From NCBI GenBank assembly GCA_022827025.1, contig JAJDTT010000209.1:1-38433 (forward strand): DNA of 38,433 nt, read 5' to 3'. Made by a program: the position numbers and the translations under genes. The notes beneath the pieces were generated by a model. The model made no database searches, was not told the origin of the DNA, and saw nothing but the letters and a program-made list of their open reading frames with translations. Positions within the stretch are counted from its first letter, which is position 1. Each line of letters begins with the position of its first letter. The stretch is from Acidobacteriota bacterium (lineage in GTDB: Bacteria > Acidobacteriota > UBA6911 > RPQK01 > JAJDTT01). Below, piece after piece: positions 8,518 through 34,226 of this stretch.

Positions 8518-8612
8518 TCCAGGCTATTGGGGCACAGGACTCGGCAGTTCATCGCCGTGGATGGAAACGAACCTTGCTCCAGACAGGAACGACTCAGACG
8601 GAAGATGGTGCG

Positions 8613-10679: not shown

Positions 10680-10735
10680 ATCGGTGGTCACGGCCGGGCC
10701 CGGCCCGACCGGTGGAAGTGGGCGATGTCCCCGGT

Positions 10736-13093: not shown

Positions 13094-13105
13094 GAGGGGC
13101 CGAGG

Positions 13106-15280: not shown

Positions 15281-15536
15281 ACGGCGAGCCGTCTTTGCGA
15301 CCCATTTCCTGCAGGACATGGAGTATTGGACGCGTACCGATCACAGGACCGCGATTCGTTTGCTGCGTCTCGTCCGCAAGATTCTGAAGGCTCCCTTTGG
15401 TGGTATCGGCAAGCCCGAACCACTCAAGCGCGAGTTGGCCGGGTTGCGGTCGCGCCGTCTCACCCAGGAACACCGGGTCGTATACGAGGTGGTGAAGAAC
15501 GAGGTCCGTTTCCTGCAGGCTCGCCACCACTACTGA
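15273..15536 (+). CDS. yoeB: YoeB family mRNA interferase toxin
   Basis: An 87-residue RelE-superfamily ribosome-dependent endoribonuclease. Aligning by eye to E. coli YoeB, GKPEPLKRELAGLRSRRLTQEHRVVY and the ending ARHHY conserve the catalytic residues: Glu49 (E46 in E. coli), Arg68 (R65) and His86 (H83). The toxin should therefore be active. The chosen ATG at 15273 overlaps the end of yefM (stop 15278-15280), the normal arrangement. The pair sits between the lpxD fragment and the intact lpxD and converges on the latter. Confidence 0.93.
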   Translation: MSERRAVFATHFLQDMEYWTRTDHRTAIRLLRLVRKILKAPFGGIGKPEPLKRELAGLRSRRLTQEHRVVYEVVKNEVRFLQARHHY

Positions 15537-18324: not shown

Positions 18325-19220
18325 CGGAAGAGATGCGCCGCCGGGCCTTCGAGAGCTACGTCGACTACCTGGTCGTGGAGCGGGGACTCTCGCCCAACAC
18401 GGTCGAGGCCTATCGGCGGGACCTTCTGGAATTCCTGGCTTTCCTGGAAGACCGTGAAGTGGAGTTGAACCAGGCCGAGAGGCACGACCTGTTCGATTTT
18501 GTGCGCCGCCTTCACCAGCGGCTCTCGGTCTCCTCCATCATGCGGAAGATCGTCAGTCTTCGTTCCTTCTACCGCTTTCTTCTCTTGGACGGTTACGTGG
18601 GGAAGGATCCCACCGAGACCCTGGAGTCGCCCAAGCTCTGGAGACGACTGCCGGTCTACCTGGAACCGGAGGAGGTGGAGCGGCTCCTGGAAGGTCCGGA
18701 CCTCTCCACCCCTCTCGGCCTGCGGGATCGAACCATGCTGGAGGTTCTCTATGCCACGGGACTGCGGGTCACGGAATTGGTGCAGATGCGGGTTCGCGAG
18801 GTGAGTCTGGAGGCGGGCTTCTTGAGGACCATGGGGAAGGGAAGCAAGGAGCGGCTGGTTCCGCTGGGGGACGAGGCCGCCGAGTTCGTGGACGCCTATC
18901 AGAAAGAGTCGAGACCCTATTTTCTTCGCAAGCGATTCTCGAGTCCCTTCCTCTTCCTGACCCGGCGGGGAGGGCCCATGACCCGTCAGAATTTCTGGAA
19001 ATTGACCCTGAACTACGGCAGGAAGGCGGGAATTGACGGCAAGCTGAGCCCTCACGTGCTTCGCCACAGCTTCGCCACCCACCTGCTGGAAAATGGCGCC
19101 GACTTGAGGGCGGTCCAGGTGATGCTGGGACATGCCGACATCTCCACCACGCAGATCTATACCCATGTGAGCCGGGAGCGCCTGAAGAAGGTCTACAGCA
19201 AGTTCCACCCCCGGGCGTGA
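18321..19220 (+). CDS. xerD: Tyrosine recombinase XerC/XerD type
   Basis: A 299-residue site-specific recombinase that resolves chromosome dimers at dif with a partner Xer protein. The N-terminal SAM-like core-binding domain (YVDYLVVERGLSPNTVEAYRRDL) is followed by the catalytic domain. The full active set is visible: Arg149 (ATGLRVTEL), Lys176 (GKGSKERLVP), His245 and Arg248 (HVLRHSFATHL), His271 (LGHADISTTQ) and Tyr280 (QIYTHV). I start at the ATG at 18321 overlapping the murJ stop. The same frame stays open far upstream within murJ, but that part is not coding. Length and completeness favour a housekeeping Xer protein over a mobile-element integrase. XerC versus XerD is not decided. Confidence 0.92.
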   Translation: MTEEMRRRAFESYVDYLVVERGLSPNTVEAYRRDLLEFLAFLEDREVELNQAERHDLFDFVRRLHQRLSVSSIMRKIVSLRSFYRFLLLDGYVGKDPTETLESPKLWRRLPVYLEPEEVERLLEGPDLSTPLGLRDRTMLEVLYATGLRVTELVQMRVREVSLEAGFLRTMGKGSKERLVPLGDEAAEFVDAYQKESRPYFLRKRFSSPFLFLTRRGGPMTRQNFWKLTLNYGRKAGIDGKLSPHVLRHSFATHLLENGADLRAVQVMLGHADISTTQIYTHVSRERLKKVYSKFHPRA

Positions 19221-19837: not shown

Positions 19838-21217
19838 TCACTCCTCATCGTCCTGCGCCGGCGCCGGCACAGCCGGGTCATCGGTCAAACGCCCCAACAT
19901 TTCATAGATTCGGATGAGGCAGTGATCCACGATCCGTTCGCCTGCGCCCGGTTCGATCCGGGCCCAGATATTCTTTGCTCCATGGCCGCCTTCGGTGGCC
20001 GCGCGAATGGTGGGGAAGTAGCTGAAAAAGCCGTTCGCAAACCCCAGAAAGAAACTGTCGGCGACCGGAGACCGCTCGCGCCAGTTCATTTGGAACTCGA
20101 TAAAGGGTTCGCCCGGCATCCCCATGAATGCGATCTCCTTGTTGATGAGAACGGTGGTGACGGGCACCTGCTTTTCCGGCTTGATCTCGGGCAGATAGTA
20201 CGGGCGGAGTTCGGGTTCCACACTCTCCTCAAAGGCTTTCATGTACTTCTCCACGTCCCAACGAAAACCGAACGTCAGCCAGTCTTCGGAGAAATCGAGG
20301 CTCGCTTCAGGGGACGGTTCGGTCCGGATCTTCCGGGCCACGCGAACGGCTTCCTTGCCTAGCGTTTCGCCGCTCCACTCCATCCTCGCGACCGGGTCTT
20401 CTTCGAGAGGAACGCCCGTGTAATAGGTGTCGATGTCGCCGGCGCCGCCGTTCAGGAAGAAAGCCATGGTCTGCGGGCCGAAAGCCTGTTCGATGGTATT
20501 GCACATGACGCCAGGGAAATCGGCCGAGTACTGCTTGAGGTTTGCCATCACCACCACGGGGTGGCAGGCGTAGTTCACCAGAACGGCCAGCGGCTTGCGG
20601 TTCCCGGTGTCTATGCGCAGGACCGCAACCGTGGGATCGAAGGGAGCCGTAGGAATCTTGGTCGGGTTCCTGAACATCATGGTCACGGTGCCGTCCGGGT
20701 TCAGTTTTCTCCGGTTGTGGCCGATGTAGGCGACTCCGTAACCCGTACCCAACCATGCCTCTGCCGCCTGCCGGTGAGCTTGTTCAGTGGCTTTTGCGAT
20801 TTTCGCGACGGCGTCCTCTTGCCAGGCCACCATGCCGGTCAAGGGATGGTTCTCATTGATGGGAATAATGGGAGCGGAGTGAGTGTGGGTCGCAACCATG
20901 AGCACAAAGGAGATTCCGCTTGATTCCTTGACTTCCCGACGCAGACGATCCATCAAGGGTGCCTGGAAGACCCGGCAGAGATCGACTGTGATCAGTGCCA
21001 GCCGCTTTTGGTCGACCTCCAGCACCAGGACGCGTGCGTACAGCGGATCATGGGCTCCGGTTGCCAGCGTAGTCCCGGAACCGAGCATGTATTTTCCCGG
21101 AGCCGGAGTAATATCAACTTTGGCCACCCCGGCCCTCAGGCCGGAACCATGCACCCAAGGGCTCACCGTCAGGCCCAACAGACAAATGCCAAAGCCAACC
21201 TTTTTCAGATTCGTCAT
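19838..21217 (-). CDS. Exported neutral/alkaline ceramidase-like protein lacking the usual serine
   Basis: A 459-residue protein with a Sec signal peptide (residues 1-24). It has the N-terminal VAKVDITPAPGKYMLG segment and the zinc motif ATHTHSAP (His111, His113) of neutral/alkaline non-lysosomal ceramidases. A further conserved His is likely at 219 (YACHPVV). At the position of the family's nucleophilic serine (GDVSPN-type motif) it reads GAGDIDTYY, with Asp263. The paralogue at 34331 has GNISP there. It may therefore hydrolyse something other than the amide of ceramide, or use metal-activated water. The ATG directly follows the TPR gene's stop with no spacer and no Shine-Dalgarno sequence, so translation is probably coupled. 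The tail is acidic. Confidence 0.82.
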   Translation of the reverse strand: MTNLKKVGFGICLLGLTVSPWVHGSGLRAGVAKVDITPAPGKYMLGSGTTLATGAHDPLYARVLVLEVDQKRLALITVDLCRVFQAPLMDRLRREVKESSGISFVLMVATHTHSAPIIPINENHPLTGMVAWQEDAVAKIAKATEQAHRQAAEAWLGTGYGVAYIGHNRRKLNPDGTVTMMFRNPTKIPTAPFDPTVAVLRIDTGNRKPLAVLVNYACHPVVVMANLKQYSADFPGVMCNTIEQAFGPQTMAFFLNGGAGDIDTYYTGVPLEEDPVARMEWSGETLGKEAVRVARKIRTEPSPEASLDFSEDWLTFGFRWDVEKYMKAFEESVEPELRPYYLPEIKPEKQVPVTTVLINKEIAFMGMPGEPFIEFQMNWRERSPVADSFFLGFANGFFSYFPTIRAATEGGHGAKNIWARIEPGAGERIVDHCLIRIYEMLGRLTDDPAVPAPAQDDEE

Positions 21218-22360
21218 TTATTGAGGCTTTTCTTGAAGACCACTCTCGATGGCGAGATGTTTTTCCCGCCTCATTTTCTGTTGAATCGCCTCGAAGCGCT
21301 GAAGTTCCTCCAGGGCTTTTCCCACGTTTCCCAATTTCTTGTAGATCTGGGCTAACTGATAGTGGGGAGCGGGTTTATCGGGGTCCAGGGCGATCGCCCT
21401 TTCCATGGCTGCTGCTGCCTCCTCCCAACGCCCCTTGCCGGCGTACGCCTTCGAGAGTTCCATATAGGCTTGGGGGAGCTGGTCGTTGACACGCAACACC
21501 TTGTTGAGATGCAGAATCGCCTCGTCAAACGCCTGCTCCATATTCTTGATGACAGCCAGGTTCAGACGCGCGATCGGAAGGTCCGATTCCAATTCGAGCG
21601 CCTTCTCAAGGTAGGGTCGGCCTGCTTCGTACAGCCCTTTCTCCAGATATAGAATCCCCACCGCCTGGTTGAGTCCAGCCGCATTCGGGTCAAGGGCAAG
21701 TGCTTTGTGGTATTCGCTCAGGGCCTCCTCCGGACGGCCCTGGAAAACGTATGCCTCAGCCCGCACCTGATGGGTTCGGGCGGAGCCGGAGTCGAGTTTG
21801 CGGAGTCGTTCGTAAATTTGCTCGAACTCGGCGAACTTCCTGGTGTTGAGGTAGGCCTGCGCCAGCATGTGCAGGACCGGGACATGGCCGGGATCTTTTC
21901 GGGTCACCTCCTGGAGCAATTCGATCGCCTCACCGAAACGGTTCAGCGCCAGATAAGATCCCGCCAGGCACAGTTGAAGGCTGATGTCCCCGGGACGAGC
22001 GGCGATGGCCCGCCCGAGGGGACCGAGTGCTTTCTCGTATTCGTAGAGAAGATAGTAATCGAGGCCCAGAAAAAGGTTCGCCTCGACACGGTCGGGATCG
22101 AGCTGCAGCGTTTTTTCGAAGGACCCTGTGGCCGCTTCATATTTGCCCTGAAAGTGACGGGCAAGACCCAGCCCGTAATTGGCATCGGCCCTTTCGGGAG
22201 ACAGCCTCAATATGGCCAGGTAGGCCTGCTCGGCTGAAACCCAATCCTGGATTTTTGCCGCCTCGGAAGCCTGTTGGTAGTATTGCCGGAGCTTTTGCTG
22301 CTGGGGTGGGGTCTGAAGACCGTAGAGCAGGAGCCCCGAAAGCAAGAGGCCAACCAGCAT
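21218..22360 (-). CDS. Exported TPR-repeat protein
   Basis: A 380-residue protein. An N-terminal hydrophobic stretch (MLVGLLLSGLLLYGL) is a signal or anchor. From about residue 25 to 360 it consists of roughly ten tetratricopeptide repeats, for example ADANYGLGLARHFQGKYEAATGSFEKTLQLDPD and AGLNQAVGILYLEKGLYEAGRPYLEKALELESD. TPR solenoids bind partner proteins; no enzyme motif is present. Its stop abuts the start of the ceramidase-like gene, so the two products are likely made together and may interact. The upstream 240 bp (22361-22600) to the divergent CocE-type gene contains no other gene. Confidence 0.88.
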   Translation of the reverse strand: MLVGLLLSGLLLYGLQTPPQQQKLRQYYQQASEAAKIQDWVSAEQAYLAILRLSPERADANYGLGLARHFQGKYEAATGSFEKTLQLDPDRVEANLFLGLDYYLLYEYEKALGPLGRAIAARPGDISLQLCLAGSYLALNRFGEAIELLQEVTRKDPGHVPVLHMLAQAYLNTRKFAEFEQIYERLRKLDSGSARTHQVRAEAYVFQGRPEEALSEYHKALALDPNAAGLNQAVGILYLEKGLYEAGRPYLEKALELESDLPIARLNLAVIKNMEQAFDEAILHLNKVLRVNDQLPQAYMELSKAYAGKGRWEEAAAAMERAIALDPDKPAPHYQLAQIYKKLGNVGKALEELQRFEAIQQKMRREKHLAIESGLQEKPQ

Positions 22361-22600
22361 TGCAGGAAAAACCTACCAAGTCCGGCAGTCGGCATTCAAG
22401 TTCGAGTCGGGAGAGAAGCACATTTAGGAGTCCGCGCGGTAGAAATGATCGTAGCGAGAAAGTGTAGAATCGAGGCCAGATTTTCACGATTTTGAGGTGC
22501 ATAGTTGTTCTATTCGCCGAGAGATCGCACGAATATGGACCGATTCTATGCTTTCGCAGTAGATTAATTTCTGCCGCGGAGGCTCCCAGGAGGCCCCTCC

Positions 22601-24649
22601 ATGGTGCGAACCAATTCACGGGGCGGGGACCGCTCCCAGTCTCAATGCCAGGTGAAAATCCTCTACACGCGAGTGCCGATGCGCGACGGAGTGGAGCTGG
22701 GGGTGAAAATAACGCGGCCGGACGCGGAAGGCCGATTCCCGGCGATCATGGAATACAATCCTTACCGTCGCATCAGAAAGCCCTTGGGCGACTATCGGGA
22801 GGAGTACCCCCCGGCCGTTCCCTACCTGGCCGAGCGTGGCTATGTCATTGCCCAATTCGACGTGCGTGGTACGGGCAATTCCAGCGGATGGAGCAAGGAC
22901 ATCTACTCTGCGGACGAGAGGCAGGACGGGTACGACATGGTGGAATGGCTCGCCGCCCAATCCTGGTGCAACGGCAATGTGGGGATGATCGGCAAATCCT
23001 ACAGTGCAGTCGTCCAGTGGCAGGTAGCGGTCCAGGCGCCCCCCCATCTGAAAGCCATCATCGTGCGGTCGGCCAATGACAACGTCTATACGGAGTGGAC
23101 CTATCCGGGCGGTGTCCTTCGCCCCTACATGTTCGACAGCTACTCCGCTCTGATGAACGCCTACAATTTCTCGCCTCCCGACCCGGATATCGTGGGAGAG
23201 AAGTGGAGCGAGATCTGGCAACAGCGCCTGGAAAACAGCCAGCCTTGGGGCATCGGTTACATTTCGAATCAACTGGACGGGCCCTATTGGCAAGACCGGT
23301 CGCTGTCGACCGACTACGGCGCGGTCCAATGTGCCGTTTTCGTCATCGCCGGCTGGTCCGACTGCTATCCCACGGCGCTGTTGCGTGCCTACTCGAAGCT
23401 GAAGGTTCCCCACAAGCGGGCGTTGGTGGGACCCTGGGGGCATTGGTATGGCGAAGAAGAATGCGCCGTGCCCGGCCCCAGGATCGATACCCGTCCGCTT
23501 TACCTGGACTGGTTCGACCACTGGCTCAAAGGGATCGACAATGGGGTGATGGACGAGCCGCCGGTCACGTTTTTCGTCAAGCGGTACAGCCCGCCTTCCG
23601 CGCGCATGCCCTTGGAAGAAAAAGGCTTCTGGCGATCGGAGCGAGAGTGGCCGATCGCCCGGACGCAGCGCACGCCCCTCTACTTTCATTCCCACGGGAA
23701 GATGAGCCCGGAGCCGTGTGAGGCAGCCGTTGAGGAGCGGGACGAGTACCCTTACAACCCTGGCGTGGGAATCACCTCCGGAATCCACTGGGGGGGAGGC
23801 ATCCTGCCCTGGGGAACGCCCATCGACCAGCGCTGGGACGAGGCGTATTCGGTGACCTATACAACGCCTCCACTGGAAGCGGATCTGGAGGTGACGGGGA
23901 CTCCTACGGCGGTCATCTACATCTCCTCCACGGCCGAGGTGGCCTACTTTCGGGTCAAGCTCATCGACGTGGCGCCGGACGGCACTTCCAAACTGGTTCG
24001 CTATGGAGGCTTGAATGCCACCCACCGCGACTCCCACTTCGATCCCGAGCCTCTGACACCCGGGGAAGTGTATGAACTCAAGATCGACCTGAAGACGATG
24101 TCCTATGTTTTCGGGACCGGGCACCGGATTCGCGTGGCCATTGCCAGCGCCGACATCCAGAATGCCTGGCCCACAGCCGAACCTGCCATCAATACGATCC
24201 ATCGAGGCCGCCGCTGTCCGTCACATATCGTCCTGCCCGTGATCCCCGGGCAGAATCCGGAGCTGCCCCAGCCCGATCTGGTGCGATTGTCCAATGCCGA
24301 CCCGCAGGACTTGTCCACACCGGAGGAATACTCGATCACCCACGACCTTGTGAATCAGAAGACCATATTTCGCATTGCTCCGGTGCACGTGCCGGAAGCG
24401 GCCGGTTTTGACCTGCAACAGCATTCCAGCCTCACCGTCTCCACGGTCAATCCTGCCGAGGCGGTCCTGAAGGCCTATTGCGCCTACACCCTCAAGCAGT
24501 TGGGTTCAGACATACGAATAGAGGCCAATGAACTGACCACCAGCGATGAGTCGGCTTTTCGCCACCTGGTGCAGTTGACGATAACGGTCGACGGAAAGCT
24601 CCACTTCAACAAGAGCTGGTCTCATACGGTGCCCCGACTCCTGAACTGA
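22601..24649 (+). CDS. CocE/NonD family serine hydrolase (X-Pro dipeptidyl-peptidase S15-like)
   Basis: A 682-residue alpha/beta hydrolase. The catalytic triad is visible: Ser133 in IGKSYSAVV, Asp254 in GWSDCYP and His281 in GPWGHWYG. The N-terminal strand segment (VPMRDGVELGVKITRP...FPAIMEYNPYR) and DVRGTGNSSG fit the family. The C-terminal jelly-roll domain (LEVTGTPTAVIYISSTAEVAYFRVKLIDVAPDG...) is the galactose-binding-like PepX_C domain. Members cleave esters (cocaine esterase), acylated antibiotics or peptides; the substrate is unknown. No signal peptide is seen. AGGAGG about seven bases upstream supports the ATG. Residues after about 560 extend beyond many CocE proteins. Confidence 0.9.
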   Translation: MVRTNSRGGDRSQSQCQVKILYTRVPMRDGVELGVKITRPDAEGRFPAIMEYNPYRRIRKPLGDYREEYPPAVPYLAERGYVIAQFDVRGTGNSSGWSKDIYSADERQDGYDMVEWLAAQSWCNGNVGMIGKSYSAVVQWQVAVQAPPHLKAIIVRSANDNVYTEWTYPGGVLRPYMFDSYSALMNAYNFSPPDPDIVGEKWSEIWQQRLENSQPWGIGYISNQLDGPYWQDRSLSTDYGAVQCAVFVIAGWSDCYPTALLRAYSKLKVPHKRALVGPWGHWYGEEECAVPGPRIDTRPLYLDWFDHWLKGIDNGVMDEPPVTFFVKRYSPPSARMPLEEKGFWRSEREWPIARTQRTPLYFHSHGKMSPEPCEAAVEERDEYPYNPGVGITSGIHWGGGILPWGTPIDQRWDEAYSVTYTTPPLEADLEVTGTPTAVIYISSTAEVAYFRVKLIDVAPDGTSKLVRYGGLNATHRDSHFDPEPLTPGEVYELKIDLKTMSYVFGTGHRIRVAIASADIQNAWPTAEPAINTIHRGRRCPSHIVLPVIPGQNPELPQPDLVRLSNADPQDLSTPEEYSITHDLVNQKTIFRIAPVHVPEAAGFDLQQHSSLTVSTVNPAEAVLKAYCAYTLKQLGSDIRIEANELTTSDESAFRHLVQLTITVDGKLHFNKSWSHTVPRLLN

Positions 24650-24715
24650 TTGCGCTCTTTCAGGCTGGAATCCAAGGGAAGGACGGAAAAATGGGCAGTT
24701 TCTGTGGCGCTTTTT

Positions 24716-25636
24716 TCAAAATTCCTTGGAATGACGAATGGCCCAGATCCAGGTGGCTCCCTCTTTTCCTCCCACCAGCGCGTCCCAGGTGGAGTTCAGG
24801 TACAGGGTCCGGCCGTCGTAGCCCAGCCAGGGGCAGGTGTCGGTTCCGGGAGTGTTGATCCGCGGCCCCATGTTCTGCCAGGGAGTCCATTGAGCGTCGA
24901 CTCTTTTGCTGATGTAGAGATCCACACTGTCGTTTAGCGAATCATTCCTACGCAGTGGAAGGATGATCGTGGTTTCTTCGGGATTGACGGCCACGTCGTT
25001 CTCGTCGCCGGCGCTGTTGACGACAGGGCCCAGATTGACGGGCTCTCCCCACCGGTCCCAACCGGAGCCGATGCGATCGCTGGTGTAAACGTCGAACCCG
25101 CCCTGTCCGCCCGGCCGGTTGCTGGAGAAGTACAATCTTCTCAGGTCTTTGGAGAGCAAGGCTCCGAATTGGACCGTGTCCGGAAGACTGACGGGCGGAC
25201 CCAGCAACTGGCCCGTGGACCAGGAGCCGTCGCGAAAGTGGGAGACGTAGACGCGGGAGGATTTTCTGAAATCGTCGCTGCGCAGAAAAATCATGACGGT
25301 CCCGTCGGCCGACAGTTTGGCATCGGCTTCGTGGGACCCGGTGTTGACCTGCGGGCCCGCGTTGAAGGGTTCGGACCAACGCCCGTTCTCCAGGCGGGAG
25401 AACCAGATGTCGAGCTTTCCCCGACCTTCCGGATGGTCGATTTGAAAGGCCAGGAGCCTCCCATCTTCAGTCTCACTGGCACAAAAGGGTTTGGCGTCTT
25501 TTGCAAGCGGGATTGAAAGCCTGGATATGGCCAGCTCTTCATCCTGGCCTTGAACGGTTGTTCCCAGGCTCATCACCTGCAAAGCGACCAATCCCGGCAT
25601 GATCGCAATCGAGCAGAGTAATCGCAAATACGGCAT
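24716..25636 (-). CDS. Exported PD40/WD40-like beta-propeller protein
   Basis: A 306-residue protein with a Sec signal peptide ending near VQGQ (residue about 30). It is built of PD40-type beta-propeller blades: SADGTVMIFLRSD, SKDLRRLYFSSNRPGGQGGFDVYTS, VNPEETTIILPLRRND and GYDGRTLYLNSTW. Such propellers occur alone or fused to OmpA domains and bind sugars, peptides or partner proteins; no catalytic site is evident. AGGGGGGA precedes the ATG. It is the third gene of a leftward set after the CRTAC1 and TPR genes, 50 bp behind the latter, and converges with the CocE-type hydrolase. Confidence 0.82.
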   Translation of the reverse strand: MPYLRLLCSIAIMPGLVALQVMSLGTTVQGQDEELAISRLSIPLAKDAKPFCASETEDGRLLAFQIDHPEGRGKLDIWFSRLENGRWSEPFNAGPQVNTGSHEADAKLSADGTVMIFLRSDDFRKSSRVYVSHFRDGSWSTGQLLGPPVSLPDTVQFGALLSKDLRRLYFSSNRPGGQGGFDVYTSDRIGSGWDRWGEPVNLGPVVNSAGDENDVAVNPEETTIILPLRRNDSLNDSVDLYISKRVDAQWTPWQNMGPRINTPGTDTCPWLGYDGRTLYLNSTWDALVGGKEGATWIWAIRHSKEF

Positions 25637-25686
25637 CCGATGGTCCCCCCTTCTCGACTCGAGGATTTCTCTCCTGTTTCAACGCC

Positions 25687-27264
25687 TCAGGGACGAGAGT
25701 ACTTGGCTCTTGCCTTGAGTTCTTCGAACTTGCGCAGATGTTCTTCCGCCTTCTGGTGCTGCTGGAGCCTCTTGTAGAGGAGCCCGAGACGGTAGTGGAC
25801 TTCCTCCTCAAGCGGTTGGAGCTTGGAGCTCAGCGCGTATTCCCGGCGTGCCTCCTCCGGTCTTTCCAGCCTTTCCAGCACCTTTCCCAGGATGAAACGG
25901 CAGGCGGCATCGTTGGCATCGACCGTGACGCCCCGTCGAGCCATCAGGAGCGCCGGCTCGAGCTGGTTGTGGCGTTCCAGAGCCGTGGCATAGACGTAAT
26001 AGAGGAAAGGATCCCTTGAATTAAGACCCAGCGCCCGCCCATAGGCCTCCACCGCCTCGTCATAGGCGCCCAACTCCAGTTGGCTGTTCCCCAGGGCAAC
26101 ATAGGCGGCATAGAAATCGGGTCTGTTCTTCACTGCCGACGCCGAGGCGTCGCGGGCCTCTTCGAAACGATTTGCGGCATGATGACTTCGGGCCTGGGCC
26201 AGGAGCAGATCCGGATCGTCCGGGAATCGGGCAATTGCATACCCGAGAAGGTCCCTGGCCAGCGGAAACAGGTTCTCCTTCAGCAACTCCATTGAAATAT
26301 CGAAGAGAAACTCCGGTTCGCTGGCCGTCGCAGGCATTCCCCGCTTGAGGGTATTGAGAGCCTCCGCCTCTAACCCCTGCTTCACGTATGCGACGCTCAG
26401 GAGTCCATAAAGTTTGAGGTGCGTTTGCACGGCGCCGCGGGTGTACGGTTCCAGCAACTGCACGACTCGCGAATAGTCCGCCTCCAGGTAGCAGGCATAG
26501 GCCAGCCAATAGTTCACCGGGAAAGAGGACTCTCTCCTCCGGACCAGTTCGAAATGGGCGATGGCTTCGGAAGCCAGACCCCGCTCGAGCATCCACTTCC
26601 CCACGCGCGTGTGGATGACGGTATCGGAAGGCAGGATTCGTCTGAGCCGAGAGGCCAGGGGGACAGCTTCGCGCGTCCGTCCCAGGTCGAGGTAGATTTC
26701 GACCAGGTAGACGAGAATTGCGGGATCGCCCGGTTGCAGATGGTGAGCATGCTCGAGAGCCGCCAGCGCGCGGGGCAGGTTGGCCTTCTTGAGATAGAGC
26801 AGGCCCATGTTGTAGAAGGCGGAGGCCCTGCCGGGGTCCAGCACTGTCACCTGCTCGAACTGCTCGATCGCCTTCTCCTGCTGGTCCAGACGCAGGTAGG
26901 TGACGGCCAGGTTGTTGTGGGTCATCAGATCTCCAGGCTTCAACTCGAGAACCCGCTCGAACTCGTGCACGGCTTCGGCATAGCGTTTCATTCTCGAATA
27001 GACCATGCCCAGGCCACCGTGCAGGGAGGGTTGATTGGGGTACCTGTCGAGGAGAGCCCGGAAAGCATTTTCGGCTGCTGCGAGTTTGCCTTCCTGGAGC
27101 AGGCGAAAAGCCTGCTGCGGACTCTGCCCGGCAACCTCGCCCTGCAGGAGGAAAGCCACCGCCACGAGTGCCAGGAGACGGGTCCATGTGATGCTGCGGG
27201 CCTGGCGGCACGCCCCCTTCTTCGTCAGGCTGGAGGTGCGGGACTCAGTCTTTGTCTCCCTCAA
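25687..27264 (-). CDS. Exported TPR-repeat protein, probable TTG start
   Basis: From a TTG at 27264 (MRETKTESRTSS...) this encodes 525 residues. I choose it because GGGAAGG lies about ten bases upstream and the overlap with the CRTAC1 gene's end is then only 20 bases. An ATG at 27423 would overlap that gene's conserved C-terminus by 179 bases. A hydrophobic signal (LLALVAVAFLLQGEVAG) is followed by about 13 TPRs, such as PSLHGGLGMVYSRMKRYAEAVHEFERVLELKPGD and AAYVALGNSQLELGAYDEAVEAYGRALGLNSRD, and a basic tail. It is probably a periplasmic scaffold. It is coupled to the CRTAC1 gene upstream and followed by the PD40 protein. Confidence 0.87.
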   Translation of the reverse strand: MRETKTESRTSSLTKKGACRQARSITWTRLLALVAVAFLLQGEVAGQSPQQAFRLLQEGKLAAAENAFRALLDRYPNQPSLHGGLGMVYSRMKRYAEAVHEFERVLELKPGDLMTHNNLAVTYLRLDQQEKAIEQFEQVTVLDPGRASAFYNMGLLYLKKANLPRALAALEHAHHLQPGDPAILVYLVEIYLDLGRTREAVPLASRLRRILPSDTVIHTRVGKWMLERGLASEAIAHFELVRRRESSFPVNYWLAYACYLEADYSRVVQLLEPYTRGAVQTHLKLYGLLSVAYVKQGLEAEALNTLKRGMPATASEPEFLFDISMELLKENLFPLARDLLGYAIARFPDDPDLLLAQARSHHAANRFEEARDASASAVKNRPDFYAAYVALGNSQLELGAYDEAVEAYGRALGLNSRDPFLYYVYATALERHNQLEPALLMARRGVTVDANDAACRFILGKVLERLERPEEARREYALSSKLQPLEEEVHYRLGLLYKRLQQHQKAEEHLRKFEELKARAKYSRP

Positions 27265-28960
27265 TTCCCATGCCTTCCCTGATGGTGAGAAACTGATTGG
27301 CTGCAACCCCGGCGAACTTTTCCACTGACCCATCGGGCCATCGGACTTCCAGATCTGTCTTTTTTGCGGTCCCCAAGCCGAAATGCAGTCGCAAGTCGCT
27401 CTGTGAAGCGTAAGTTCCGCCACTGCGCACTTCTTTGATCAGTTTTCGTCCGCCGTCCCAGACTGCCGAGACGCGCGTACCGATCGCACTCCGGTTCGAG
27501 CGGCTGCCGATGGCCAGTATTACGATCCAATTCCCACGTGGCCCGTAGTTCTTGTAAAGACTGGGCCTCCCGTTTTCGTTGTTCACCAGGATTTCGAGCG
27601 TCCCATCGTTGTCGAAGTCTCCGAGAGCAATCCCCCGGCTGGTCTGTGGCTGAAGCAGATCCGCTCCGGACGACGCGGTGACATCTACAAACGTGCTTCT
27701 GCCCGTGTTCCGGTAAAGGACTTTCCGCTGCCGGTACCGGGACCGGAATCCGTGGCCGTCGATTTCCGGATAGACGTGACCATTGGCGATGAAGATGTCG
27801 TCGAATCCATCCTGATCGTAGTCGAGAAAACCGACGCCCCAGCCCAGATATGCCAGGTTCACTCCCAATCCGGCTTCAAACGTCGCGTCGCTGAAGGTGC
27901 CGTCGCCATGGTTCTTGTAGAGACTCGATTTGTCGTCCGAAAAATTGGTCTTCACGATGTCCAGATCACCATCGTTGTCGTAATCTCCGGCGTCGACGCC
28001 CATGCCGGCCTGCTCTTTTCCATCACCGCTGTAGGCCACTCCCGCCAGCAGACCCATCTCGGAGAAGGTCCCGTCCCGGTTGTTGCGAAACAGAAGATTG
28101 GGTGTCGAGTCGCAAGCGACGTAGACGTCGGGCCAGCCGTCGCTGTCGTAATCCGCCACCAAGACCCCGAGTCCGTATCTTTCACCGGTGGCGGTAATCC
28201 CAGCCGGCCCGCTCACATCGGTAAATGTCCCATCGCCTTCGTTCCGATAGAGATTCGAGGGCAGGCCCTTCAGGCCTCGAGGACCACACATGACCGGAAT
28301 CCCCTTCCACAGGCAGTTGGAATTCTCTCCGGGACGGGGAGCGGACACCGGATCGAAATCGATGTAGTTGGTGACGAACAGGTCAAGGTCCGAATCCCGG
28401 TCGTAGTCCAGGAACGAGCAGCCCACGCCCCACAATCTTTGCTTTGTGTACAGCCCCGCCTTTCGGGTGACTTCCATAAAGGAGCCCTCTCCGGTGTTGC
28501 GGTAAAGGACATTGTGTCCATAGTAAGTCAGGTAGAGGTCGATCCAGCCGTCATTGTCGTAGTCTCCGGCGCATACTCCCTGGCCCCAGCCCGATCGCAC
28601 CAGTCCGGCCTGGCCGGTGACGTCGCTGAACCGGCCGTTGCCGTCATTCCGATACAGGCGGTTGGAAGGCTCGGCGCCCTCCGCGAACCCCTCGCTACGG
28701 CTGGCCGTCATCAGGAAAATGTCGAGGTCGCCGTCGTTGTCGTAATCCAGAAAGGCACAGCCCGCGCCGGTCGTTTCCAGAATGGTTTCTTTCCGCTCTA
28801 TTCCTCCCGAATAACAGACGAAATCACCCAGTCCGGCCTCGGCTGCAATATCCACGAAACGGGCCCCGGGACGGCTTGAAACGGACTCTTCTTGCGCCCA
28901 GGCGGAGACCCATAGGAAGCAGAGAACCATCGGGATATGGATCGTCTTCTCAAAGCTCAT
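27245..28960 (-). CDS. CRTAC1-type secreted protein: seven FG-GAP/VCBS repeats and ASPIC/UnbV domain
   Basis: The ATG at 28960 gives 571 residues and a clean signal peptide (MSFEKTIHIPMVLCFLWVSAWA), so I prefer it to longer in-frame starts. Seven calcium-site repeats are seen: DYDNDGDLDIFLM, DYDNDGWIDLYLT, DYDRDSDLDLFVT, DYDSDGWPDVYVA, DYDNDGDLDIVKT, DYDQDGFDDIFIA and DFDNDGTLEILVN. The C-terminal ASPIC/UnbV domain is complete (GTRVSAVWDGGRKLIKEVRSGGTYASQSDLRLHFGLG...LEVRWPDGS). It is divergent from the TonB receptor across 179 bp and heads a leftward CRTAC1-TPR-PD40 group. The joint arrangement suggests an outer-membrane uptake or binding module, which is inference. Confidence 0.9.
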   Translation of the reverse strand: MSFEKTIHIPMVLCFLWVSAWAQEESVSSRPGARFVDIAAEAGLGDFVCYSGGIERKETILETTGAGCAFLDYDNDGDLDIFLMTASRSEGFAEGAEPSNRLYRNDGNGRFSDVTGQAGLVRSGWGQGVCAGDYDNDGWIDLYLTYYGHNVLYRNTGEGSFMEVTRKAGLYTKQRLWGVGCSFLDYDRDSDLDLFVTNYIDFDPVSAPRPGENSNCLWKGIPVMCGPRGLKGLPSNLYRNEGDGTFTDVSGPAGITATGERYGLGVLVADYDSDGWPDVYVACDSTPNLLFRNNRDGTFSEMGLLAGVAYSGDGKEQAGMGVDAGDYDNDGDLDIVKTNFSDDKSSLYKNHGDGTFSDATFEAGLGVNLAYLGWGVGFLDYDQDGFDDIFIANGHVYPEIDGHGFRSRYRQRKVLYRNTGRSTFVDVTASSGADLLQPQTSRGIALGDFDNDGTLEILVNNENGRPSLYKNYGPRGNWIVILAIGSRSNRSAIGTRVSAVWDGGRKLIKEVRSGGTYASQSDLRLHFGLGTAKKTDLEVRWPDGSVEKFAGVAANQFLTIREGMGIEGDKD

Positions 28961-29139
28961 GCGGGGCGAGCCGATCCAATGGCTTGAATTACCAAGGTAC
29001 ATGCAAGCGTAGCACAGCACTTGAGGTGGTCCTCTCCTTTTTTCTTGACCCTTTCTGACAGATTCGTGTAGCGTTGTCCGCAACTGCTGGAATCTTAATT
29101 CCAGCGCTCGCCGACCGGCCCGCCAAGGAGGATGAGACA

Positions 29140-32100
29140 ATGCAGGCTTCCCTCTTTTCTGCCAAGAACACCCTTCTGCTTCTTGTTCTGGTGGTGCTTG
29201 CCACCGCCGGCGCCCAAGGCCAGGTCAAGAGCACCATCTCGGGGACGATCAAGGATGACACCGGTGGCGTGGTGCCCGGCGTCGACGTAACGGCCACCAA
29301 TCTGGAGACCAATATCGCCCGTTCGGTGGTGACCGGGGATACGGGTGGTTACGAAATTCCTTTCTTGGATCCTGGAATCTATCGAGTCACGGCTGAGATG
29401 GCCGGATTCAAGACGGCTGTCGAACCGGGTGCCGAACTGGACCTTGCCACCAAGCTTCGCGTCGATTTGACGCTGCAGGTGGGAGAGATCGGGGAGGAGG
29501 TGGAAGTCCGGGCGGCGGTGCCGCTGGTCGAGACCGAGACCTCGGAAGTCGGGGGGACGATCAAGGAAGAGCAGATGCGCCAGCTGCCGCTACTGACCCG
29601 CAACTATCAGGCTTTGGCGACCTTGTTGCCCACCGCCGTCACTCCCGTTCCCAGTGCCACCGGCTACATACCGAATCAGAACCGCGGCAATTACTACCAG
29701 CTTGCCGGCCAGCGGGGAGCGTATACCTCCTACACCATCGACGGAATCGACTCGAATACGGTTTGGATTCAAACCCAGTCGGCCACTCCGTCATTGGATT
29801 CCCTGCAGGAATTCAAAGTCAAGAGCCATAATTTTTCGGCCGAACAGGGTCGGGGATCGGTCCAGTTCATAACCACAACCAAGAGCGGCACCAACGAACT
29901 GCGTGGCGCGATTTACAACTACAATCGAAACGACATCTTCAACGCCAACAGCTTTTTCAGCAACCGCGCCGGGGCGGACAAGAACGCATTCAACTACAAC
30001 CAGTTCGGCGCCAACGTCGGTGGACCCATTCGGGTGCCGGGTTATGACGGCCGAGACCAGACCTTCTTCTTTTTCGCCTACGAGGGAACCCGTTTTCGCC
30101 AGAGTGCGACCAGCTTTGGGAGATTTCCCGATACCAGGTGGCTCCAAGGCGATTTCTCTACCCTGGGGAAGACCATTTACGATCCCTATACGACTGTCGA
30201 GGATGCAAGTGCGCCGGCGGGATACAGCCGGCAGCCCTTCCCGGGAAACCAGATTCCCAGCAACCGCATCAATCCTCAGGCCAAGACTCTGATCGGTCTG
30301 GGGCTGCTTCCGAGCCCCAACCACGCGGAGGGGACGACGCTGCCTGGAAACAGCAATTTCCTCGGAACCACGTCGGACCCGGAGGATATCAACTTCTGGA
30401 CCGTGCGCATCGATCACGTCATCTCCGACAGCGATCAGATCTACGGGCGCTACATGGAGTCGATCGACCGCAAGAGAAGAGGCAGCCTGGTGCCTCAGTC
30501 CGGCACCAACAACGACAACAACATGCACAATGCGATGATGTCGGAGATCCATACGTTTTCGCCCACCACCGTCAATGAGCTGCGCGTCGGCTACAACCGT
30601 GGAAACTGGTTCGGGGGACAGGATGGATCGGGGGATGTGGACTATTCTTCAGAAGTTTTCGGATTCAAGAACATCGGCGGCTCGCCCCTCGGTTTCGGCC
30701 TGCCCCGATTTGGCTGGAGCAACTACACCAGCCTCGGGCCGACCCCTGACGCACCTTTCGGTGCTCTGAACAACACCTACCAGATTTCCGACAACCTGAT
30801 GACGAGGTATGGAAATCATTCGATAAAACTGGGCTTCGACATCCGGGAGATTCGCATGCGCTGGTTGGCTCAGGCCGGCATCCGGGGGAATTTCAGCTTC
30901 AACGGGATTTTCTCGCAGTTTCCGGGAGATACCGAGTCGGGCAGTCCGTTCGCGGATTTCCTGCTGGGACAGGCGCAAGAAACCTGGGGACTGGCCGGCA
31001 ACGGCACCGGTTACTTCAATCAGAAGCTGTGGGGGTTCTACCTGCAGGATGACTGGAGAGTCTCCCCCGAGCTGACCGTGAACCTGGGCCTGCGCTATGA
31101 GTACTACGAGCCCTGGAATGCGATCCGGGGAGATTACGCGGTTTTCGATTTCGTGGCTCCTCCGGGAAGTTGTTTTCGGGATACGACTCCCTGTCCACCG
31201 ACTCCGCTGGACGCCGCCGAGCCCGGCGAGAGTTACTACAATGCCGACAGGAACAACTGGGGTCCGAGAGTCGGTCTTGCGTACGCCCCCTTCGGAGACA
31301 ACAGGACGGTCATTCGCGCCTCGTATGGCATCTTCTACTCTCCTCCCGATGCCACCGACCAGGTCAATGGAGCCCTGAATCCGCCCTCCAACGTGCTGCG
31401 GTTCATCAACCCCGCGACCTTGTATACCGATCTGGAGACCAATGACTTGACCAAGTTGTTCCCGGTTGCCGATATCACTCGCGCGGATTTTCCCCAAATC
31501 ACCGGACCCACCTGGCATCCCTCCCTGGCCGGCGCCACCCTGCATTCGGTCACCCGGAAGTTCGACGACGCCATCATCCAACACTGGCAGTTGACGGTGC
31601 AGCGGGAAGTCGTCAGAAACCTGCTGGTGGAAGTGGGTTACGTGGGTTCACACGGATACCATGGCCAGCGCCGCATCAATTACAACCAGGCGCACCTGGA
31701 TCCCCCGGGAGTCACGACATCCTTTCGATCCCGGCTTCCGTATCCGGACCTGTCGAATTTCACCTTCATCATGGAGCACAGCGCACAGAACAATTACAAC
31801 GCGGGTCTGTTGCGCGTGGAGCGGAGGTTCGACCGGGGCCTTTCGTTCATCTCCTCATACACCTTTGCCAGAACGCTTGATGATTACGGCAACCTCAACG
31901 ACGCCACCGGGTTCTGGGCCCAGAATTCGTATGACAAGAAGGCCGAGAAGGGCTTGTCGCAGTTCCACGCCAAACACCGGCTGAGCGTCGGGTACATCTG
32001 GGAAATCCCGGTGGGTCGCGGCAAACGCTTCGGGTCCGATATGCACCCGGTGATCAATGGAATCTTCGGCGGCTGGCAGCTCAGCGGAATCACCACCTTC

Positions 32101-32523
32101 CAGTCGGGGAGCCCCAGGATCATTCGACCGTTCCCTCGGGATTTCAGCAACACGGGCCAGTTCTGGTGGGCAACCCGGCCGGACAAGGTCCGGACGGGCA
32201 AGGTGAAGACCCTCGATCCTCGCGCCAACAACCTGCGCTGGTTTGACGCGAACTATTTTGCGAATCCGGAGGTGGGAACCTTCGGAAACACGGGCCGCGG
32301 TGAGGTCTTGGAGCCGGGAATCCGCAACTGGGATCTCAACGTGTCCAAGAGTTTCCACATCGGAGAAACGGCCAGGATTCAGTTCCGCGCCGAGTTTTAT
32401 AACGCCTTCAACCGCGCCCAGTTCTTCGGTTTCGGCAACTCCGTGGGATCGAGCAATTTCGGCATCATCTCCGCAACGCGTCCGCCGAGGAACATCCAGT
32501 TGGGACTTCGCTTGGAGTTTTAG
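29140..32523 (+). CDS. TonB-dependent receptor, Oar-like, with carboxypeptidase-regulatory-like N-domain
   Basis: A 1127-residue outer-membrane receptor. The ATG at 29140 follows AAGGAGG at ideal spacing and gives a Sec signal (NTLLLLVLVVLATAGAQG). Residues about 28-110 form a carboxypeptidase-regulatory-like beta-sandwich (STISGTIKDDTGGVVPGVDVTATN). A plug domain follows (QLPLLTRNYQALATLLP...YTIDGIDSNTV...LQEFKVKSHNFSAEQGR). The rest is a beta-barrel rich in alternating aromatic residues, ending in the outer-membrane-type RNIQLGLRLEF. Such receptors import oligosaccharides, peptides or chelates using TonB energy, or act in surface binding. It is divergent from the CRTAC1-TPR-PD40 set and ends at a strong terminator, so it is probably transcribed alone. 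Confidence 0.94.
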   Translation: MQASLFSAKNTLLLLVLVVLATAGAQGQVKSTISGTIKDDTGGVVPGVDVTATNLETNIARSVVTGDTGGYEIPFLDPGIYRVTAEMAGFKTAVEPGAELDLATKLRVDLTLQVGEIGEEVEVRAAVPLVETETSEVGGTIKEEQMRQLPLLTRNYQALATLLPTAVTPVPSATGYIPNQNRGNYYQLAGQRGAYTSYTIDGIDSNTVWIQTQSATPSLDSLQEFKVKSHNFSAEQGRGSVQFITTTKSGTNELRGAIYNYNRNDIFNANSFFSNRAGADKNAFNYNQFGANVGGPIRVPGYDGRDQTFFFFAYEGTRFRQSATSFGRFPDTRWLQGDFSTLGKTIYDPYTTVEDASAPAGYSRQPFPGNQIPSNRINPQAKTLIGLGLLPSPNHAEGTTLPGNSNFLGTTSDPEDINFWTVRIDHVISDSDQIYGRYMESIDRKRRGSLVPQSGTNNDNNMHNAMMSEIHTFSPTTVNELRVGYNRGNWFGGQDGSGDVDYSSEVFGFKNIGGSPLGFGLPRFGWSNYTSLGPTPDAPFGALNNTYQISDNLMTRYGNHSIKLGFDIREIRMRWLAQAGIRGNFSFNGIFSQFPGDTESGSPFADFLLGQAQETWGLAGNGTGYFNQKLWGFYLQDDWRVSPELTVNLGLRYEYYEPWNAIRGDYAVFDFVAPPGSCFRDTTPCPPTPLDAAEPGESYYNADRNNWGPRVGLAYAPFGDNRTVIRASYGIFYSPPDATDQVNGALNPPSNVLRFINPATLYTDLETNDLTKLFPVADITRADFPQITGPTWHPSLAGATLHSVTRKFDDAIIQHWQLTVQREVVRNLLVEVGYVGSHGYHGQRRINYNQAHLDPPGVTTSFRSRLPYPDLSNFTFIMEHSAQNNYNAGLLRVERRFDRGLSFISSYTFARTLDDYGNLNDATGFWAQNSYDKKAEKGLSQFHAKHRLSVGYIWEIPVGRGKRFGSDMHPVINGIFGGWQLSGITTFQSGSPRIIRPFPRDFSNTGQFWWATRPDKVRTGKVKTLDPRANNLRWFDANYFANPEVGTFGNTGRGEVLEPGIRNWDLNVSKSFHIGETARIQFRAEFYNAFNRAQFFGFGNSVGSSNFGIISATRPPRNIQLGLRLEF

Positions 32524-32542
32524 CACCGATTGGAATATTGGG

Positions 32543-32573
32543 AAAAAAGGGGCGGTCTTCCGCCCCTTTTTTT
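32543..32573 (+). terminator. Rho-independent terminator after the TonB receptor gene
   Basis: GGGGCGG (32549-32555), loop TCTT, CCGCCCC (32560-32566) and a run of seven T's, with six A's before the stem. It starts 20 bases after the TonB stop. The flanking A and T runs make it bidirectional, so it can also end transcription of the convergent symporter gene. Confidence 0.93.
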
Positions 32574-32588
32574 GTGGACCGCCGGTCA

Positions 32589-34226
32589 CTACCAGAGGAC
32601 GACAAATACGACGTAGCCCGACGTAGTCAGTACTGCGGCAGCCCAGAGGGCGGGGGATGCCCACCAGGGAACGCCTCCCGGAAACGGTGACAGGGCAATC
32701 TCCCGGACCGTTCCCTGGGAGCGCGCCAGCCAACCGGAGGGCCGAGGCTTCATTCGGGCCGTTCGCCGGGCAGCCGGCGGAGACACGACGCCCAGGATCA
32801 TCGAGGCGCTCAACATCGCGGCGGCAGTCACGCCGGTCGTCCAAAGGTAAGCCACGAAATTGTCCGTCAACCACAGTGGAAGGTGCGCTTCAAGCGCGAC
32901 TGTCGACAGCCGGAAGGCGGGTCCGGCGATCAGGCCGACAAGGCCGGCGCGCCGGTCCACTCTTGTCGTTGAGCCCACCAGGTACACGGTCATCAGAGGC
33001 GTCACGAAGACACTGGTGATGCCGACGAAGAACTCCACGATGTTCTGAGCGCGAAGGATGAAGGGAACGTAGAGAAACGTAATGGCTACGATGACTACGG
33101 TGGCCATCCGGCTGACAATTACGTAGTGACGATCGTCCCTGTCGGGTACGAGCAGGCGAGCGTAGATGTCACGCGTAAAGAGCGCAGACAGGGCGACTCC
33201 AATACCTTCGAAGGTACTGACGGCGGACGCGATCATTCCGGCGACGACGATGCCCTTCAGTCCGGCGACGAGGTATTGATCGACCAGCCGTGGATAGATC
33301 AGGTCCGGGTTGGACAGGCCGGGAACCAGTGCCCGCCCAAGCAGTCCCAGCGAACTGCTGAAGTAACCCGAGAGAATGATCAGCGCGGCGCCCGCGACGA
33401 CGGACATCTTCAGATCCCACATGGACCGGGCGCCGAACATCTTCATGGTCTGAGTGTGGTTCACGACAAAATAGCCGGTGGCAATCAGGCACCAACCGAT
33501 CACCACCACAATCGGATGACTGCTCGCATCACCCCGACTTCCGATGTGCAGCAACTCCTGCGCTTCTCGCTCACCGAGCTGCGCGACCAGCGCGGCCTGG
33601 GTGCCGGCCCAACCCCCGGCTTCCTGCCAAATGACGGACCAGAGCACCAGAGTCGAGAGGAGCATGAGTGCGCCGAGCAGAACGTCTGCCGCGGCAATCG
33701 TTTTCAGTCCCCCCCAGGCGGCGTAAAGAGTCGTTGCCGCGGTCAAGCCGACAATCAGAATCCAAGCGCTGTGGGACGGGAGGGCGGCCACTTCGGTCAG
33801 CATGAGATGCAAGGCCACGGCGATGGTCGCCAGGGTGGCCGTCCGGTACTGGATCTGAACCAGGACGCTGATGATTCGTGCCGAGATGCCGAACCGGTGC
33901 TCGAGGTATTCCGCATTGGTGTACAGCCCGGCCCGGTACATGCCCGGCATAACGACAAAGGCAGCGATCACGCCGCCGACACCGACCCCGAACACAACCC
34001 CGGTGAACATCACCAGGCCATCCTGGTAGGTCGCGCCGTTGACGGCGACGTATTCGCCGCCGTCGACCGAGGTCGCGAACATCGAGACGCCGATCAGCCA
34101 GAAGGGCAGGCTGCGTCCGCCCAGAAACCAGTCTACGTCCGAGTGCGTCTTGCGCGAACGGAAGGAGGCGTACCCGATGATCAGGAGATTGAGGGCGATC
34201 ACTATGAACCAGTCGATTCCTGCCAT
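32589..34226 (-). CDS. Sodium:solute symporter (SSS family)
   Basis: A 545-residue inner-membrane transporter with about 13 hydrophobic helices. It starts MAGIDWFIVIALNLLIIGYASF and has the typical SSS segments DWFLGGRSLPFWLIGVSMFATSVDGGEY (helix 1-2 sodium-site region), YTNAEYLEHRFG and GLKGIVVAGMIASAVSTFEGIGVALSALFTRDIY, the last being the helix-8 signature. It would couple uptake of a sugar, amino acid or carboxylate to sodium. The substrate is unknown. It is divergent, across 104 bp, from a ceramidase-like gene followed by an amidohydrolase, which may act on the imported compound or supply it. Confidence 0.92.
   Translation of the reverse strand: MAGIDWFIVIALNLLIIGYASFRSRKTHSDVDWFLGGRSLPFWLIGVSMFATSVDGGEYVAVNGATYQDGLVMFTGVVFGVGVGGVIAAFVVMPGMYRAGLYTNAEYLEHRFGISARIISVLVQIQYRTATLATIAVALHLMLTEVAALPSHSAWILIVGLTAATTLYAAWGGLKTIAAADVLLGALMLLSTLVLWSVIWQEAGGWAGTQAALVAQLGEREAQELLHIGSRGDASSHPIVVVIGWCLIATGYFVVNHTQTMKMFGARSMWDLKMSVVAGAALIILSGYFSSSLGLLGRALVPGLSNPDLIYPRLVDQYLVAGLKGIVVAGMIASAVSTFEGIGVALSALFTRDIYARLLVPDRDDRHYVIVSRMATVVIVAITFLYVPFILRAQNIVEFFVGITSVFVTPLMTVYLVGSTTRVDRRAGLVGLIAGPAFRLSTVALEAHLPLWLTDNFVAYLWTTGVTAAAMLSASMILGVVSPPAARRTARMKPRPSGWLARSQGTVREIALSPFPGGVPWWASPALWAAAVLTTSGYVVFVVLW

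Follow-up and report, generated by a model that had tools for sequence, protein, structure and literature searches.

CRTAC1-type and TPR protein genes recur side by side in Acidobacteriota, with an Oar-type TonB-dependent receptor as optional member of a possible nutrient-acquisition unit

The window analysed here is a stretch of 38,433 nucleotides, one contig (JAJDTT010000209.1) of a 5.33-Mb metagenome-assembled genome (MAG) of an Acidobacteriota bacterium that consists of 318 contigs. It carries genes for a CRTAC1-type protein, a large tetratricopeptide repeat (TPR) solenoid and a PD40 protein, which run leftward from a gene for an Oar-type TonB-dependent receptor (TBDT) on the opposite strand. 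The combination of a CRTAC1 gene with a TPR gene is a real recurring unit, of which no earlier description was found in the open-access literature searched; the Oar receptor is an optional member of the loci that contain this pair, and the PD40 protein is a passenger at the level of the genus. The set may be a modular unit of nutrient acquisition in Acidobacteriota that manages without SusD and in which an Oar receptor, CRTAC1 as substrate binder, a TPR protein as scaffold or lid and exchangeable hydrolases would act together, a reading for which belief and doubt are in our view evenly balanced.

The initial annotation of the window had proposed a recurring module and had made this proposal depend on an adjacency of CRTAC1 and TPR genes above chance. 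Such an adjacency was found both in the genome to which the window belongs (own genome) and in the phylum. It should be noted that the TPR, CRTAC1 and Oar labels used for the counts come from iterated profiles combined with a home-made gene caller and were spot-checked against Pfam and the record annotation. The own genome has 39 matches to ASPIC and approximately 40 Oar receptors. A TPR gene is the immediate neighbour of 18 of its 47 CRTAC1 genes that code for 350 aa or more and lies within three genes of 24 of the 47. When the CRTAC1 regions were compared with 20 control contigs taken arbitrarily and with 20 regions round further Oar genes, TPR genes made up 18 of the 61 immediate non-CRTAC1 neighbours versus 2 of 147 genes on the control contigs and 1 of 123 in the Oar regions (p = 5e-12). 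At 80 external loci, mostly from Acidobacteriota MAGs and many of them from Terriglobia, 62 of 122 CRTAC1 genes are next to a TPR gene; these loci were chosen by similarity to the CRTAC1 protein of the window and the sample is therefore biased. The 122 genes include three loci that were also fetched otherwise (L076, L080, and L084) and near-duplicate MAG pairs. The three loci were dropped from the analyses of neighbour clusters, of slots and distances, of downstream genes and of the tree, as were L074 and L075 from the neighbour clusters, L175 from the downstream-gene and tree analyses, and L056 and L057 from the tree. A phylum-wide sample, which was not chosen by neighbours and in which each of 20 genomes is represented by the ASPIC match listed first for it, with 15 control stretches added, gave a TPR neighbour at 20 of 34 CRTAC1 genes and, counted by slots, 18 TPR genes in 47 versus 8 in 196 control genes (p = 3.5e-9). 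By chance a run of Oar, TPR, and CRTAC1 genes was present in one control stretch (L205).

Adjacent CRTAC1 and TPR genes are mostly on the same strand (64 of 89 pairs), and in 18 of 228 CRTAC1 genes both parts are fused in one open reading frame. One of these fusions was confirmed in Pfam and has the order FG-GAP, ASPIC, TPR. When the neighbours at own and external loci were clustered, TPR proteins were found in 72 loci and Oar receptors in 50, the next cluster being present in 13. Of the module as proposed, the CRTAC1-TPR part thus recurs, the receptor does so in a subset of loci, and the PD40 protein does not do so beyond one genus. Some TPR proteins near CRTAC1 genes have additional features: those encoded at L134:16150-17751 and by similar genes (labelled OT) bear an Oar-type N-terminal CarboxypepD_reg domain, and those at L144:2-1300 and in L019 have CXXCH or cytochrome-like motifs.

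The receptor of the window has the CarboxypepD_reg domain, the plug and the barrel by which Oar-type receptors are recognized. Its AlphaFold2 model, with a predicted local distance difference test score (pLDDT) of 71, aligns to TBDTs over plug and barrel with Z scores of about 27–32. In CRTAC1 loci of other Acidobacteriota a TPR gene follows the receptor gene directly and on the same strand in 24 of 46 cases (18 of 33 in the external loci and 6 of 13 in the phylum sample), as compared to 0 of 21 in a sample centred on Oar genes (Fisher, p = 1.4e-5). For the latter sample, each of 20 genomes contributed one of its top-scoring matches to PF25183, and one receptor subfamily may dominate in it. 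In the own genome, ASPIC matches lie within 5 kb of an Oar gene in 11 of 39 cases versus 3.7 expected (p = 7e-4). Adjacent Oar and CRTAC1 genes are divergent in 10 pairs, on the same strand in 8, and convergent in only 1 (divergent more frequent than convergent, p = 0.012), and for 8 of the 12 closest CRTAC1 relatives examined beyond the genus an Oar gene lies within three genes. The distance matrices of paired Oar and CRTAC1 proteins correlate: r is 0.34 for 15 immediate pairs (p = 0.004), 0.25 for 24 pairs (p = 0.038), and 0.68 for 7 pairs from the own genome (p = 0.010). On a tree of 90 Oar receptors the label for association with CRTAC1 changes about 22 times, and none of 500 shuffles gave so few changes (minimum 23, mean 30.3); the association is therefore heritable, yet often gained or lost.

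What the neighbouring enzymes are was looked at by a family scan that covered 116 of 140 proteins sampled from beside external CRTAC1 genes (no more than two for each locus, out of 206) and 102 of 128 control proteins. The 116 neighbours include LacI (6), the glycoside hydrolase (GH) families GH97 (3), GH36 (3), GH42 (2), and GH127 (2), and ROK (2), and all of them are missing from the 25 commonest families listed for the 102 control proteins, which are from the own genome. One locus is repeated, mostly in Terriglobia MAGs: it has, in this order, LacI, a CRTAC1-TPR fusion, a large TPR protein, two CRTAC1 proteins, sugar-type dehydrogenases, GH97 or GH42, and a CarboxypepD-TPR protein, an Oar fragment being found at the contig edge in several cases. 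Loci of this type are L092, L108, L109, L113, L120, L123, L124, L129, L134, and L146; their fusion protein has about 1200 aa and their TPR protein about 850 aa, and parts vary or are lost at contig ends.

Similar surroundings, with genes for glycan degradation and no SusD, were found in cultured organisms. Eight plasmid records were matched, of which 6 were examined, the other 2 being without annotation. For example, pACIX902 of Granulicella tundricola encodes an alginate lyase, GH88, a TPR protein, a cytochrome, a TBDT, a CRTAC1 protein, an esterase, GH30, and GH28, and pACIX901 of the same organism an α-glucosidase, a TBDT, a TPR protein, and two CRTAC1 proteins. In Acidisarcina polymorpha, plasmid pACPOL3 carries genes for GH172, an Oar-type protein, CRTAC1, TPR, LacI, and fucP, and pACPOL4 genes for TPR, CRTAC1, and GH27 without a receptor. 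In Alteromonas a CRTAC1-like VCBS gene lies two genes from a TBDT gene. The Sus-like logic ascribed to the set from its sequence thus has a counterpart in other genomes, where the trio or parts of it stand among GH28, GH88, GH97, GH42, GH127, LacI, and fucP; for the window set itself the parallel does not extend to carbohydrate-active enzymes (CAZymes).

That the set has neither SusD nor a glycosidase had been seen from the window alone, and this agrees with the genome-wide searches for SusD and with the Pfam scan for CAZymes. The SusD family PF14322 has no match in 31 relatives including the own genome, and PF07980 has none in the own genome and one in the 119 genomes of a phylum sample. With these two families no SusD hidden elsewhere in the own genome was found. 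The sole SusD_RagB match (G003:C60:3867-4394) is partial, has 45 bits, and is from a congener.

How such a set would work is best discussed by comparison with the systems of Bacteroidota. Like a SusCD locus, the set combines a TonB receptor having an N-terminal carboxypeptidase-like domain with partners that are encoded alongside, and in relatives also with hydrolases and LacI; unlike a SusCD locus, the window set has no SusD and no CAZyme, and its partners are non-lipoproteins as judged by a heuristic. In Acidobacteriota the TPR gene occupies the place that susD has in a susCD pair. SusD is itself helical and built with TPR-like units. Directly behind SusC-SusD of Hymenobacter volaticus there is a CRTAC1-like VCBS gene, in the position that CRTAC1 or TPR has in Acidobacteriota. 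A second likeness is to BtuB-BtuG and XusA-XusB of Bacteroides, in each of which a TBDT has a propeller partner; the window likewise encodes a propeller beside a TBDT, the CRTAC1 gene being divergent from that of the receptor. For both there are solved examples of a seven-bladed propeller as lid of a TBDT: BtuG sits on BtuB as a cap over the barrel and catches vitamin B12, and XusB covers XusA, which has an N-terminal carboxypeptidase-like domain (passages in PMC10404256 and PMC13142918). BtuG and XusB belong to other families of propellers and are lipoproteins of the cell surface, and CRTAC1 differs from them by FG-GAP plus ASPIC and a type-I-like signal.

It is by analogy with the propeller lids BtuG and XusB, and with the TPR gene in the place of susD, that the propeller is proposed to be a trap and the TPR protein a scaffold or lid. 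From the gene content we infer an export destination, binding, a complex, and a kind of substrate in the following form. The Oar-type receptor would span the outer membrane, the seven-bladed CRTAC1 propeller would be its substrate-binding partner or substrate trap, the TPR solenoid would be the scaffold or lid joining the binding protein to the receptor, and the neighbouring hydrolases, which vary by locus, would prepare the substrate. Overall the set would work like SusC with its binding proteins, or like BtuB-BtuG and XusA-XusB, and would do so without SusD or lipoprotein anchors. Uptake would be the role of the set and the cell surface its putative location. Because the neighbours that are kept are a hydrolase of the CocE type and a ceramidase-like protein, the substrate in the case of the window would more probably be a compound with an ester, amide, or lipid linkage than a plain polysaccharide.

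Acidobacteriota are numerous in soils, and their genomes can carry dozens of Oar receptors and of CRTAC1 proteins to which no role has been assigned. Should the trio prove to be an uptake unit, it would explain how oligomers are imported in a phylum without SusD, it could serve as a marker for the utilization loci of this phylum, and it would contradict the view that only Bacteroidota possess TonB transporters capped by a lid. One can go further and assume that capped TonB transporters evolved independently in the Acidobacteriota and are present in many copies per genome, with Oar as transporter, CRTAC1 as lid or trap, and a TPR protein in SusD's place, all without lipoprotein anchors. This extension we put forward tentatively and regard as unlikely; if true, it would mean that there is an unrecognized class of glycan and nutrient importers outside Bacteroidota with exchangeable hydrolases. 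The clear loci in the cultured G. tundricola and A. polymorpha make these proposals directly testable.

There are, however, a considerable number of observations that weigh against an uptake unit built around the receptor. The Oar family PF25183 is present in all 119 sampled genomes, CRTAC1 (PF07593) in only 51 of them. In the phylum sample an Oar gene is immediately beside CRTAC1 in none of 47 slots and within three genes in 6 of 34 cases, all 21 receptors of the Oar-centred sample are without CRTAC1 within three genes, and 19 of 20 further Oar loci of the own genome have no CRTAC1. In the own genome ASPIC matches are within 2 kb of an Oar gene in only 3 of 39 cases (p = 0.3, not significant), and the receptor-TPR order is rare there (2 of 33) and in close relatives (1 of 14). 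Neither partner is near the most similar receptor from beyond the genus (37% identity, L074). The structure matches give no preference for a SusC-like fold: the best are PirA, FusA, Cir, and BtuB (Z 30–32), and levan SusC-type chains reach 27.9 and 27.5, the pLDDT of the model being that given above. No CAZyme was found in the 8 genes scanned by Pfam (19838-34226). By heuristics, a lipobox is present in only 4 of 188 CRTAC1 and 1 of 140 TPR proteins, which leaves a surface anchoring unexplained, and a twin-arginine motif is found in 29 of the 144 CRTAC1 proteins from external loci; neither finding fits the Bacteroides model, and CRTAC1 and TPR proteins may be periplasmic or released. Signal peptides, lipoboxes, and twin-arginine motifs were all counted by regular-expression or hydropathy heuristics. 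Since most Oar receptors have no CRTAC1 nearby and there is no direct contact in the phylum sample, the receptor mostly works without these partners, and CRTAC1 forms a tighter unit with TPR.

An alternative is that CRTAC1 and TPR are a self-contained exported pair, for example a protein that binds or is an enzyme, together with a partner for scaffolding or folding, and that the receptor is one among several genes that the pair happens to serve or to lie next to. In the phylum sample 20 of 34 CRTAC1 genes have an immediate TPR neighbour and 0 of 34 an immediate Oar neighbour, the fusions seen join CRTAC1 with TPR, the twin-arginine motifs suggest export of a folded protein, and genes of the CRTAC1 family also flank hydrazine-synthase-like genes, as described in a passage of PMC12758564. 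The receptor-TPR order in about half of the CRTAC1 loci with its absence from the Oar-centred sample, and the correlated divergence of adjacent receptors and CRTAC1 proteins, speak against it, and we hold a self-contained pair to be possible if somewhat doubtful. Improbable, by contrast with an uptake unit, appears a receptor that exports, i.e., one through which the CRTAC1 and TPR proteins encoded beside it leave the cell, in the way that Oar of Myxococcus is needed for secretion of the protease PopC. The CRTAC1 and TPR proteins have signal peptides, no lipobox, and no known exit route, and passages in PMC6434023 and in the review PMC11658791 describe an Oar-dependent, Ton-energized secretion of PopC. 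The receptor of the window shares the CarboxypepD_reg plus TBDT architecture with Oar of Myxococcus xanthus and is likened to it by domain make-up alone, a linkage of that Oar to CRTAC1 or TPR is not seen in the published passages, many CRTAC1 genes have no Oar nearby, and the context in relatives (glycoside hydrolases, LacI, fucP) is catabolic. Very improbable is that there is no module at all and that abundant CRTAC1, TPR, and Oar paralogues are together by chance in genomes rich in paralogues. The many ASPIC matches and Oar receptors of the own genome and the frequent switches of association on the Oar tree would be in keeping with chance; against it stand the own-genome, phylum, and Oar-centred controls, the labels, which cluster on the Oar tree more than in any shuffle, and the fusions, and for the CRTAC1-TPR pair it is already contradicted.

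The genes and positions of the leftward run and of the receptor opposite to it, as first read from the sequence, were borne out (Table 1), the start of the CRTAC1 gene being set to the ATG at 28960, which is followed by a signal peptide; a longer frame with a TTG at 29140 is not used. Also the TTG at 27264, which starts the TPR gene and lies within the CRTAC1 gene by 20 bp, holds by its coordinates and in congeners. With this 20-bp overlap and a gap of 50 bp between the TPR and the PD40 gene, the three leftward genes may well be transcribed together. For the receptor a promoter and a terminator of its own had been proposed. The terminator is there: it has a 7-bp GC stem with A6/T7 arms, a folding energy of −23.9 kcal/mol, and a z score of −4.47, with none of 200 shuffles equal to it, and it was missed by a scan with a consensus pattern and picked up by folding and sequence. 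No promoter was identified: a scan for sigma-70-like sites gave none (1.9 expected by chance), the divergent intergenic region included.

Table 1. Position of the CRTAC1-TPR-PD40 run, the receptor gene, and neighbouring features in the window
Feature	Position	Strand or orientation	Basis
PD40 protein, 306 aa, predicted exported	24716-25636	-	PD40 4.9e-10 (Pfam)
TPR solenoid, 525 aa, predicted exported	25687-27264	-	TPR_2 7.8e-34 (Pfam); N-terminus like that of signal peptidase I (SPI) substrates, by heuristic
CRTAC1-type protein, 571 aa	27245-28960	-	FG-GAP_3 2e-49, UnbV_ASPIC 2.8e-20 (Pfam)
Oar-type TBDT, 1127 aa	29140-32523	+	CarboxypepD_reg PF13620 3e-18; OMP_b-brl_4 PF25183 1.7e-229
Divergent intergenic region, 179 bp	28961-29139	between CRTAC1 and receptor genes	from gene ends
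Intrinsic terminator 3' of receptor gene	32543-32573	symmetric; common to convergent SSF gene	fold and sequence
CocE/NonD-family hydrolase	22601-24649	+	TIGR00976 1.4e-99
Second TPR protein (TPR2), 380 aa	21218-22360	-	TPR_2 6.8e-36
Neutral-ceramidase-like protein, directly downstream of TPR2	19838-21217	-	PF04734 3.1e-11
Second CRTAC1 gene of the window	10736-13093	-	FG-GAP_3 5.7e-53, UnbV_ASPIC 7.5e-10
GH42-related protein, adjoins second CRTAC1	8508-10679	+	PF02449 26.0 bits, PF08532 27.9 bits, barely above curated cut-offs

The locus of the window is present in two of three other genomes of the genus examined (G001 and G003). In the third, G002, no receptor matched at the threshold used, and the CRTAC1 matches there are other paralogues only. 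In comparison with the two congeners all four genes have dN/dS values of 0.09–0.27, indicating purifying selection. The region of the TTG start of the TPR gene is kept in G003 and open in G001, and the divergent intergenic region has 80% identity to that of G003. The order of the block in the genus is ceramidase-like protein, TPR2, CocE-type hydrolase, PD40, TPR, CRTAC1, and receptor (synteny in L056 and L057). The neighbour cluster of the PD40 protein was found in only three loci, those of the window and the two congeners, all of one genus, and PD40 was for this reason rejected as a part of the module. A link to the type IX secretion system (T9SS) was also rejected: the PD40 protein matches part of the NCBIfam profiles of PorE and CHU_0125, which are OmpA-like outer-membrane proteins, with scores of 74.5 and 108.4 bits that are far under the cut-offs of 600 and 620, and no OmpA domain was found in it. 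Neither is the SSF symporter (32589-34226) supported as a partner, since in the stretch from G003 just 177 of its 545 codons match. Among 74 neighbours of CRTAC1 genes in the window's own genus are SSF symporters (4), GWxTD proteins (4), and CocE/X-Pro hydrolases (3).

The CRTAC1 protein of the window consists of a signal peptide (SPI-like and without a lipobox by heuristic), an FG-GAP propeller with seven DxDxDG-like motifs, and a C-terminal ASPIC/UnbV domain. It shares the propeller and the ASPIC domain with the CRTAC1/ASPIC-UnbV family and differs in that the Pfam scan gave no EGF domain. Its AlphaFold2 model has a pLDDT of 90, and the top match in the PDB is murine CRTAC1 (9etn; Z 41.0, 2.3 Å, 456 residues). 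In Foldseek, GlcNAc-binding propeller lectins of fungi rank after murine CRTAC1 (E 2e-10 to 2e-8). VIA-align ranks LGI1 and other propellers, and the lectins are not among the best 50 matches listed, which excludes nothing. As the two rankings differ, a lectin-like function read from the fold is weak. A motif CxWKGxxxxCGP is present in the propeller of 106 of 183 CRTAC1 proteins with 500 aa or more and suggests a disulfide and a specific site. A family of ASPIC/UnbV paralogues is described for Solibacter usitatus in published passages (PMC3174227). In the open-access literature, no report was found that links CRTAC1 with TPR proteins or TonB receptors, which is no proof of absence, and nothing was found there on utilization loci of Acidobacteria; what was found on CRTAC1 family proteins by that name concerns anammox enzymes.

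That further CRTAC1 genes stand beside hydrolases in the window was confirmed for the second one (Table 1). It lies in a candidate carbohydrate locus (8508-14347) between the GH42-like protein, which has a lipobox-like N-terminus, and a BNR-repeat protein. Farther on in the window there are a type II toxin-antitoxin pair at 14999-15536, YefM (PhdYeFM_antitox 1.3e-18) and YoeB (1.1e-27), whose gene ends overlap, and, at 16717-19220, a gene for a MurJ-like flippase followed with a 4-bp overlap by a gene of the tyrosine-recombinase (phage-integrase) family.

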